Shown: piece after piece, positions 24,048 to 26,813 of the stretch | Layout of the letters: every line of letters starts with the position of its first letter | Position numbering within the stretch: the first letter of the stretch is position 1 | NCBI GenBank assembly: GCA_023958095.1 | Contig: JAMLGJ010000009.1 | Span: 1 to 64,000 of the forward strand | Direction: 5' to 3' | DNA length: 64,000 bases | Source of the DNA: Microthrixaceae bacterium | GTDB lineage: Bacteria; Actinomycetota; Acidimicrobiia; Acidimicrobiales; Microtrichaceae | Notes under the pieces: model-generated | Seen by the model: the letters and a program-made list of their open reading frames with translations, nothing else | The model's database searches: none | Told to the model about the DNA's origin: nothing | Program-made: the position numbers and the translations under genes

Positions 24048-25271
24048 TCAGGGCGGGGTTCCCAGAGCCGCGTCGAGGTCCGCGAGCAGGTCCTCGGGAT
24101 CCTCGAGACCCACCGACATGCGGATCGTGCCCGCCCCGATGCCCGCTGCGGCGAGTTCCTCGGGCAACAGGCTCACATGCGTGGTCGAGGCAGGATGGGT
24201 GACCAGCGTCTCGGGTCCGCCCAGTGATGTGGCAAGACGGCAGATCCTGGTGGCCTCCACCAGGCTGCTGCCCGCTTCGAGGCCACCCACCACGTCGAAG
24301 GTCACCAGTCCGCCCATCAAGGCCATCTGACGCACTGCGAGGTCGTGCTGGGGGTGCGATGGCAGTCCCGGGTAGCGCACCGACTCCACCCTGGGATCCT
24401 CCTCGAGGGCAGCCGCGATCCGCGCCGCTGACTCGCTCTGGCGGCGGAGTCGCACCCCCAGGGTGCGCAGGCCCCGTGTCGCCGCGGCGGCTTCGTGCGG
24501 ACTCGCCACCGCACCCTGGAGGACCGCGAAGCCCCACAACCAGTCGATGAGGTCCCTGGCACCGGCAGCCACACCGAGGGTGACGTCGTTGTGCCCGCCC
24601 AGGAACTTGGTCACCGAGTGGATCACCAGGTCGCAGCCCAGCTCGAGGGGCCGTTGGGCGAGCGGTGTGGCAAAGGTGGAGTCGACCACCTTCATCGGGC
24701 CCTTCACCTCCCCGAGTGCACGCAGGTCGACCAGGTCGAGGCGCGGGTTCGCCGGCGTCTCCGCGAGCAGCACCATGGTGCGTCCGGGGATCACCGCCTC
24801 GGCCCATGCCCCGGGATCGGTTCCGTCGACGAAGGTCACCTCGATGCCCATTCGCGGACAGACCGAGTTCAACAGCATCTGGGTGCCCGCATAGAGCTGC
24901 TTCTGGGCCACGATGTGGTCGCCGTTCGAGCACAACCCCAGGACCGCCGCTGCGATCGCTCCCATGCCGGAACCGAACGCGCGTGCGGCCTCGGCGCGCT
25001 CCAGATCCGCAACGGCCTCCTCGAAGTCGTTGACCGTGGGATTGCCGTAGCGGCTGTAGAACGCCGTGGCCTGCGAGGAGAGCGCCATGCGCCGTCCTTC
25101 CTCCACCGAGGACAGAGCGAATGTCGAACTCGCGTTGACCACCGGAGCGAGGCTCGCCCCGTTGTGGCGCCGTCCGACGGTGATCAGGTCGGTCTCGATC
25201 GAGGTGGGCAACCGGCCCTGCTCCGGTGCTGTGCCCTCACCACCGGGTGTGTCCTGCCCTGGTCGTGTCAT
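24048..25271 (-). CDS. trans-sulfuration PLP enzyme (cystathionine gamma-synthase / O-acetylhomoserine sulfhydrylase family)
   Basis: This 407-residue PLP enzyme of the Cys/Met metabolism family has the pyridoxal lysine in HSVTKFLGGHNDVTLG, the YSRYGNPT motif that binds cofactor phosphate across the dimer, and AETPANPRLDLVDL. Family members join an activated homoserine to cysteine or sulfide, or cleave cystathionine. Its ATG overlaps the metX stop (ATGA at 25268-25271), and MetX makes O-acetylhomoserine. The likely reaction is therefore O-acetylhomoserine to cystathionine (MetB) or homocysteine (MetY), and I cannot separate these. It is the second gene of the unit behind the riboswitch-like leader at 26.6-26.8 kb. 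Confidence 0.85.
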   Translation of the reverse strand: MTRPGQDTPGGEGTAPEQGRLPTSIETDLITVGRRHNGASLAPVVNASSTFALSSVEEGRRMALSSQATAFYSRYGNPTVNDFEEAVADLERAEAARAFGSGMGAIAAAVLGLCSNGDHIVAQKQLYAGTQMLLNSVCPRMGIEVTFVDGTDPGAWAEAVIPGRTMVLLAETPANPRLDLVDLRALGEVKGPMKVVDSTFATPLAQRPLELGCDLVIHSVTKFLGGHNDVTLGVAAGARDLIDWLWGFAVLQGAVASPHEAAAATRGLRTLGVRLRRQSESAARIAAALEEDPRVESVRYPGLPSHPQHDLAVRQMALMGGLVTFDVVGGLEAGSSLVEATRICRLATSLGGPETLVTHPASTTHVSLLPEELAAAGIGAGTIRMSVGLEDPEDLLADLDAALGTPP

Positions 25272-26587
25272 CGTCGCTCCCTGTGGTTCCGAGCGTCTGG
25301 GGGTTCCGCCAGCGCCCGGGAGACGAGCTTCTCCATTGCCGGCGCCAGCTGGTCGGTGTCGATGAGGAAACCGTCGTGGCCGTGGGGGGAGTCGACGTCC
25401 ACGAACGTGCTGTCGATGCCGGTGGCCACGAGTGCCTCGTGCAGTTCACGCTGCTGGTAGGGCGGGTAGAGCGCATCGGAACGCACCGCTGCGACCACCG
25501 TCGGACAGCACAACTGTGCGATCGCGGGCGCCAGCCCCCCGCGCCCACGCGCCAGGTCGTGCAGGTCCATCGCCCGGTTCAGGCGCAGGTAGCTGTTGGC
25601 ATCGAATCGCCGTACGAGCTTGTCACCCTGGTAGTCGAGGTAGCCCTCTATGTCGAAGGTGCGCCCCAACGAGAAGTCCAGCTGGTTGAGCACAGTCCGT
25701 CCGAAGCGTGCGGAGAACACCTCGTCGCTGCGGTAGGTGACCATGGCCACCATGCGTGCCACCGCAAGACCACGGTGCGGGCCCTCACCCGGTGCGGCGT
25801 CGTAGTAGTCGCCCCCGTGGAACCCGGCGTCGGCCTCGACTGCCATCCGCCCGATGTGGCTCCAGGCGATCTGTTGTGCCGAGGCCGCGGCGGTGGTCGA
25901 TGCGAGGAACAGCGACGCCACGCGCTCGGGGTACATGACACCCCACTCCAGGGCCTGCATGCCGCCCATGGAACCGCCGATGACCGAGGCCCAGCGCCGG
26001 ACCCCCAGGGCATCCGCGAGTGAGGCCTGGGCGCGGACCATGTCCCGTATCGACACGACCGGGAAGGAGGATCCGTAGGGCCGTCCGGTGGCCGGGTTCC
26101 TCGATGCGGGGCCGGTGGAACCCTGGCATCCCCCCAGCACGTTGACCCCCACCACGAACAGCCGGTCGGTGTCGAGGGTCCGTCCCGGACCGACGAGTTC
26201 GTTCCACCACCCCGGCGTGGCGTGACCTTCGCCGCTCGTGCCGGCAACGTGGCTGTCACCGGTGAGCGCGTGGCACACGAGCACCGCGTTCGACCCATCT
26301 CCGTCGAGCTCACCCCAGGTCTCGTAGGCCAGCTCGACCTCGGCTAGGTGACCTCCGCCCTCCAGCAGGAACCGGCGGGAAGGATCCAGGCGATGGAACC
26401 TGCGGTTGCCGGGCGGGTCACCCTGCATCCACGCACCGGTGACCGGTTCGCCCCGGGTGGCTTGCGACCCGCTGCGCGAACCCCGCGACGAATCGACCGG
26501 ATCCCCCTCCGGTGTGACCGGGGGCGACACGTCGGGCACCTCAGCAACCGGCTCGGGCTCGGGTCGGTTGTAGGCGCTGTGTTCCAC
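25268..26587 (-). CDS. metX: homoserine O-acetyltransferase
   Basis: This 439-residue alpha/beta-hydrolase-fold enzyme transfers acetyl from acetyl-CoA to homoserine, the first committed step of methionine synthesis. The catalytic triad is visible as GGSMGGMQALEWG (Ser), RSDALYPP (Asp) and DSPHGHDGFL (His). The VNVLGGCQGSTGPAS block and the LVCHALTGDSHV oxyanion strand are standard MetX features. The first 55 or so residues are low-complexity Pro/Glu/Ser sequence. I chose GTG 26587 because GGAAG lies eight bases upstream and that site is the target of an upstream anti-Shine-Dalgarno. Starting at ATG 26427 would drop the extension. The open frame continues upstream through the riboswitch region but is not considered coding. 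Confidence 0.88.
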   Translation of the reverse strand: MEHSAYNRPEPEPVAEVPDVSPPVTPEGDPVDSSRGSRSGSQATRGEPVTGAWMQGDPPGNRRFHRLDPSRRFLLEGGGHLAEVELAYETWGELDGDGSNAVLVCHALTGDSHVAGTSGEGHATPGWWNELVGPGRTLDTDRLFVVGVNVLGGCQGSTGPASRNPATGRPYGSSFPVVSIRDMVRAQASLADALGVRRWASVIGGSMGGMQALEWGVMYPERVASLFLASTTAAASAQQIAWSHIGRMAVEADAGFHGGDYYDAAPGEGPHRGLAVARMVAMVTYRSDEVFSARFGRTVLNQLDFSLGRTFDIEGYLDYQGDKLVRRFDANSYLRLNRAMDLHDLARGRGGLAPAIAQLCCPTVVAAVRSDALYPPYQQRELHEALVATGIDSTFVDVDSPHGHDGFLIDTDQLAPAMEKLVSRALAEPPDARNHRERR

Positions 26588-26594
26588 GGTACGT

Positions 26595-26657
26595 GCTTCC
26601 GGTAGGGCAGACCCGACGGCGAAGGGCGTCGGCCGCGAGGACCGGTGTCCCGGAAGC
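26595..26657 (-). promoter_or_regulatory. anti-Shine-Dalgarno expression platform of metX
   Basis: On the minus strand GCTTCCGG (26657-26650) is perfectly complementary over 8 bases to CCGGAAGC (26602-26595), which contains the metX ribosome site. It lies directly after a GCACC/GGTGC hairpin (26671-26658). Pairing would block metX initiation. A hairpin CCGACG/CGTCGG lies between the two arms. Confidence 0.6.
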
Positions 26658-26673
26658 GCACCCGGAGGTGCAT

Positions 26674-26778
26674 CGGACACGTCGTTGCTGCCACTAGGGC
26701 TGCCACATCCCCGCTGTCGCAGGTAGGCACCTTGGGTGTCCGTCCCAGGTTGCCGGACCACTTGGGTCACTCCTGATG
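26674..26778 (-). ncRNA. SAM-clan riboswitch candidate (SAM-IV or SAM-I/IV-like) in the metX leader
   Basis: Read on the minus strand, the conserved SAM-I/SAM-IV core is visible: CATC, AGGAGTG, a short P2 (GACC/GGTC with loop CAAGT), CGGCAACC, P3 (TGGG/CCCA with loop ACGGACA), AAGGTGCC, P4 (CCTGC/GCGGG) and GATG closing P1. After P1 a P5-like stem GCAGCC/GGCAGC (26703-26687) is followed by GTGTCCG (26680-26674). That strand is complementary to the P3 loop CGGACA, the pseudoknot known from SAM-IV and SAM-I/IV. P2 lacks the kink-turn and the long arm of SAM-I. It precedes metX by about 90 bases and would lower metX translation when S-adenosylmethionine is plentiful. The class is inferred from motifs only. 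Confidence 0.72.
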
Positions 26779-26813
26779 ATTCGCAACAGTGAAACCCAAC
26801 GCGACCTGCGAGG

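Follow-up and report, generated by a model that had tools for sequence, protein, structure and literature searches.

Variant SAM-I/SAM-IV RNAs that have many features of both families, and in which P2 lacks an internal loop, were described by Weinberg et al. 2010 (PMC2864571), and the 'SAM-I-IV-variant' of that study is the Rfam family RF01725. The SAM-I/IV class is further characterised by an undivided P2, the absence of the pseudoknot PK-1 and the presence of P4 (Zhang et al. 2019, PMC6890682), and a SAM-I/IV crystal structure is cited in the same paper. We describe here the metX leader in a 64-kb stretch of actinobacterial DNA (the window; 64,000 nucleotides), in which a covariance-model scan of the whole stretch finds RF01725 at 26784-26671 on the minus strand with 44.9 bits, above the curated gathering cut-off of 41.1 bits. 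This match is the sole riboswitch in the window (E 4.5e-4, or 4.3e-6 when a region of 601 bases is scanned), and the smaller scan also returned one weaker overlapping match of the same clan, which the program suppressed and did not name. Covariance searches of the whole genome gave no SAM-IV (RF00634) match at E<=1 and a single SAM-I (RF00162) match, at another locus (C1:195201-195307). An earlier note on this DNA had placed a SAM-clan riboswitch upstream of metX, which is borne out by the RF01725 score, by covariation and by the downstream metX gene, and had suggested asking which Rfam SAM model scores best, a comparison that SAM-I/IV wins. The same note saw a mix of a SAM-I P4 with a SAM-IV-type pseudoknot; both features are present, but they are not unusual, since this mix is the definition of SAM-I/IV. 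Because each point of the published class description fits, the RNA in the window is, as far as sequence and covariance models can place it, a new member of the already described class SAM-I/IV, and a new hybrid is excluded.

The whole aptamer occupies 26671..26784 of the minus strand, on which all features below also lie, and contains a P1-closed core of 73 nt (26706..26778) in which P1 is formed by CATC (26778-26775) and GATG (26709-26706). P1 is paired in 100% of cells in an alignment with 32 related aptamers. P2 is a continuous helix of four pairs with no internal loop (GACC 26768-26765 / GGTC 26759-26756), and the corresponding five-pair helix of the relatives is 96.9% paired. P3 (GGCAACCTGGG...CCCAAGGTGCC, 26754-26726) carries the loop ACGGACA at 26743-26737 and, within 26726..26754, the SAM-pocket strands CGGCAACC and AAGGTGCC. 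P4 lies between P3 and the 3' strand of P1 (CCTGC/GCGGG, 26723-26710; 89.2% paired in the relatives, with changes on both sides at four of five pairs) and P5 lies beyond P1 (GC-A-GCC/GGC-A-GC, 26703-26687; 87.1% paired, with changes on both sides at five of six pairs); the P5 of the window has a single A.A mismatch. The pseudoknot PK-2 joins CGGACA in the P3 loop (26742-26737) to TGTCCG on the 3' side of P5 (26679-26674), and its six pairs are intact in the window. Directly after it comes the hairpin GCACC-UCCG-GGUGC ('P6', 26658..26671), which is kept in both congeners and shows one G-C to A-U double change in one of them (L023). The elements of the SAM-clan core, GAG, GCAACC, AGGTGC (with a nearly invariant A) and GATG, recur across the 32 aptamers and are intact in the window. 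All motif positions that had been reported for the minus strand were verified, including the P1-to-P1 span of 73 nt.

Within the same family 31 of 33 genomes have an RF01725 match; the figure is 71 of 198 for the order and 32 of 396 at phylum scale. In the alignment of 32 aptamers all helices hold, standard pairs fill 94.6% of the pair cells, and both sides change at 17 of 35 pairs. Doubly changed pair cells number 61, as against 15.3 with shuffling and 8-23 in slid structures, and not one of the five observed values was attained in 500 shuffles. PK-2 alone has double changes at five of its six pairs, its strands changing together as GGACAC/GTGTCC, TGACAC/GTGTCA, GGATA/TATCC, GGACGC/GCGTCC and GGAAGC/GCTTCC, and a search independent of the loop sequence located, where the fold predicts it, a strand complementary to the P3 loop for 85 of 97 leaders. 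The aligned sequences thus indicate that the pseudoknot, P4 and P5 covary strongly among the related aptamers.

Downstream lies metX, encoding homoserine O-acetyltransferase (25268..26587, minus strand; NF001209, the MetX equivalog model, 482.7 bits), which is overlapped by four bases by a second operon gene for a Cys/Met metabolism PLP-dependent enzyme of the trans-sulfuration or sulfhydrylase type (24048..25271, minus strand; PF01053, 380.6 bits); this enzyme reached no NCBIfam equivalog cut-off. Upstream, an N6 DNA methylase-like gene (PF02384, 26814-28496, minus strand) ends 29 bases before the riboswitch match, and no sigma-70-like promoter was found between the two. Most homologous SAM-I/IV copies have metX downstream. 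A downstream metX match is lacking for 19 of the 97 leaders (including L002, L003, L031-L035, L040, L042 and L044-L046), a few of which lie on contigs that simply end, and on visual inspection some of the proteins that follow such leaders look like MetY or homoserine dehydrogenase. In L016, from an incomplete genome of the same genus, the metX reading frame seems to change somewhere from the leader to the conserved part of the gene, and the likely metX start is overlapped by the end of a short frame beginning with ATG; an assembly error is possible. We conclude that in the window the operon of metX and a Cys/Met PLP-enzyme gene, from an Acidimicrobiia bacterium whose relatives are labelled Microthrixaceae, probably has a cis-acting SAM-I/IV riboswitch in its leader. 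Judging by its class, it is very likely that this leader binds SAM and represses metX. At high levels S-adenosylmethionine would occupy the P1/P3 core, the pseudoknot with the P3 loop would close, and metX would be expressed less, translation initiation being the most likely step of control. Platforms in Actinomycetota are reported to be translational as a tendency (PMC12452182), and no terminator-like site was found between the aptamer and metX.

The means by which ligand binding might reach the ribosome site is less certain. The sequence GCTTCCGG (26657-26650, minus strand), a proposed anti-Shine-Dalgarno (anti-SD) strand, is a perfect 8-bp complement of CCGGAAGC (26602-26595, minus strand), a proposed ribosome site that is a weak SD. 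Helices of at least eight pairs occur somewhere in the region in 10% of dinucleotide shuffles, and an 8-nt complement to the CCGGAAGC site specifically in 0.9%, so that the match appears mildly unusual against chance. Both same-genus leaders keep the aptamer, the post-pseudoknot hairpin GCACC/GGTGC and then TTCC, which is part of the anti-SD, and diverge beyond it; the partner CCGGAAGC and the 8-bp helix are absent from both. Because thermodynamic folding forms the helix unconstrained and also with the aptamer and pseudoknot imposed, the helix alone would be no switch but rather a constant block, and a competitor is needed. The anti-SD switch proposed in the earlier note is partly supported: the 8-base match is perfect, but it finds support neither in conservation nor in state-dependent folding. 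The note's claim of a fully readable expression platform is not supported, given a weak SD and a helix that is missing from the congeners and forms in both states.

A candidate for this competitor is GCACCUCCGGGUGCGCUUCCG (26671-26651, minus strand), which contains most of the anti-SD and can form 15 pairs with the 3' half of P3, CGGACACCCAAGGUGC (26742-26727), at -23 kcal/mol. At this energy the helix outranks 97% of shuffles (z -2.5 to -2.8, P 0.02-0.03), and it costs 13.5 kcal/mol above the free minimum-energy fold, so that exchange in the window would be workable only kinetically. In such an exchange, without SAM, 26671-26651 would be engaged with the 3' half of P3; SAM, by holding P3 and the pseudoknot, would free the strand, whose end GCUUCCGG would then cover CCGGAAGC before GTG 26587. 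We advance with considerable reserve a local strand-exchange arm in which 26671-26651 alternates between the P3 3' half and CCGGAAGC, and we take it seriously because the leaders of relatives target the same P3 3' half. A pairing of the pseudoknot 3' strand with GGGACACC, a mimic of the P3 loop that in the window directly follows GCTTCC, was rejected, as such mimics numbered 17 against 22.7 expected from shuffles.

Across 95 order-level leaders, the P3 3' half has an excess of complementarity to the next 70 bases, with a mean z of -1.46 and P<=0.05 in 40% of leaders; for the other seven of the eight aptamer segments the mean z is -0.22 to +0.17, with 5-11% at P<=0.05. An exact complement of the P3 3' half of at least seven bases is present in 25 leaders, mostly as GGGTGTCC, a second copy of the pseudoknot strand. 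This decoy is often followed by CUCC and then by the SD, and examples in which it usually stands just before an anti-SD are L041, L050, L055, L056, L148, L150, L153, L154, L157, L159 and L163. The decoy follows the P3 loop, with GGACGCC accompanied by GGCGTCC, GGACAGCC by GGCTGTCC and GGACAAC by GTTGTCC, and among the 27 leaders with non-standard loops six match their own loop over at least eight bases and none matches the standard loop (permutation mean 0.10, maximum 1 in 300 permutations). That loop and decoy covary supports a strand-exchange model. Of the four GGACGCC leaders that bear a decoy, three include the competitor helix in their minimum-energy free fold, and in the fourth it lies at 0.8 kcal/mol. 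In a small set of leaders fetched later the decoy recurs in L187, L188 and L189 and, with a different loop, in L192; the average signal of that set is weak because many of its matches score under the cut-off or belong to something other than SAM-I/IV. Beyond the order, RF01725 matches that fall below the cut-off resemble for the most part other members of the SAM clan, and they have no decoy. The decoy statistics are strong hints only, because the hypothesis arose from the same order-level data, the sequences share ancestry, and simple rules were used to choose the start codons. We tentatively propose, as a possibility that may well fail, that SAM-I/IV riboswitches of the Acidimicrobiia work by strand exchange at the P3 3' half, with a decoy that usually has an anti-SD CUCC after it, and that 26671-26650 in the window is a diverged decoy. 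Without SAM the decoy would pair with the P3 loop and arm and the gene would be on; with SAM bound the decoy would be free, the SD could be covered, and the gene would be off.

Another plausible if doubtful configuration has the same riboswitch acting without any pairing to the ribosome binding site, the ligand-closed pseudoknot and the next hairpin hindering either ribosome loading or RNA polymerase/Rho. Consistent with such a mode, close relatives mostly have an ATG or GTG start with hardly any SD at 25-85 nt from the pseudoknot, no intrinsic terminator lies near the window leader, and in some members of the order (L167, L168, L173 and L030) the SD immediately adjoins the pseudoknot 3' strand; in the window, however, at least 84 nt separate the start from the aptamer. 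The SD directly follows the pseudoknot 3' strand in L156 too (e.g. GTGTCCGAGGAGTGCCATG for this type of junction), and from its sequence the arrangement in these five leaders would be a direct-occlusion variant of SAM-I/IV. The SAM-I match at the other locus of this genome (L059:1501-1614 in G000), and likewise L180-L182, has a P1 3' strand GATGAGG that runs into the SD AGGAGG and the ATG of a gene for a protein of roughly 140 residues with no Pfam match. The arrangement suggests that an orphan gene is controlled there by direct occlusion of its SD. In L183-L186, from another genus of the same family, a SAM-I match precedes a different cysteine-rich protein, of unknown family.

The identity of the metX start codon, which is uncertain, bears on a further alternative. 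The start implied by the earlier note is GTG 26587, and an in-frame alternative is GTG 26530 with the SD GAGGTG at 26542-26537, which might be covered by GCACCTC (26671-26665), leaving GCTTCCGG/CCGGAAGC as spacer structure in the same riboswitch. The duplex with the 16S 3' end is stronger for GAGGTG (-6.9 kcal/mol) than for CCGGAAGC (-3.5 kcal/mol), and GCACCTC/GAGGTGC is a perfect 7-bp complement, but a 7-nt complement arises in 12% of shuffles and GCACC is tied up in the local hairpin kept in the congeners. The codon-position G+C over 26587-26531 (0.84/0.42/0.79), although drawn from 19 codons only, is coding-like and favours the upstream start, and we consider initiation at 26530 under this control unlikely. 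That the leader is a degenerate relic and metX constitutive is very improbable, since although the window P2 is one pair shorter than that of relatives, P5 has a mismatch and the free-energy z-score of the aptamer alone is an uninformative 0.28, the pocket nucleotides that are invariant or nearly so in relatives are intact, the score is above the cut-off and the six-pair pseudoknot is preserved.

These observations establish a known SAM sensor as the probable, near-universal control of metX in this family and provide a set of homologous leaders. They also yield, as a by-product, a testable model in which exchange of a duplicated pseudoknot strand would couple SAM binding to the ribosome site.

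Comparison with the described classes places the window RNA as follows. With SAM-I it has the binding core and P4 in common, although SAM-I has a kink-turn or P2 internal loop and a pseudoknot with the P2 loop, neither of which is present here, and the pseudoknot of the window is formed at the 3' end instead. It shares PK-2 and P5 with SAM-IV, which contains P2a/P2b and PK-1 and lacks P4 (PMC6890682), whereas the window RNA has P4. It resembles SAM-I/IV in its core, its undivided P2, P4, P5 and PK-2, and in the methionine gene downstream, and differs in that its P2 has four pairs only and in that its pseudoknot strand GTGTCCG contains no SD, with the start codon at least 84 nt downstream; because of these last two features, the expression platform of the window would be separate from the aptamer.
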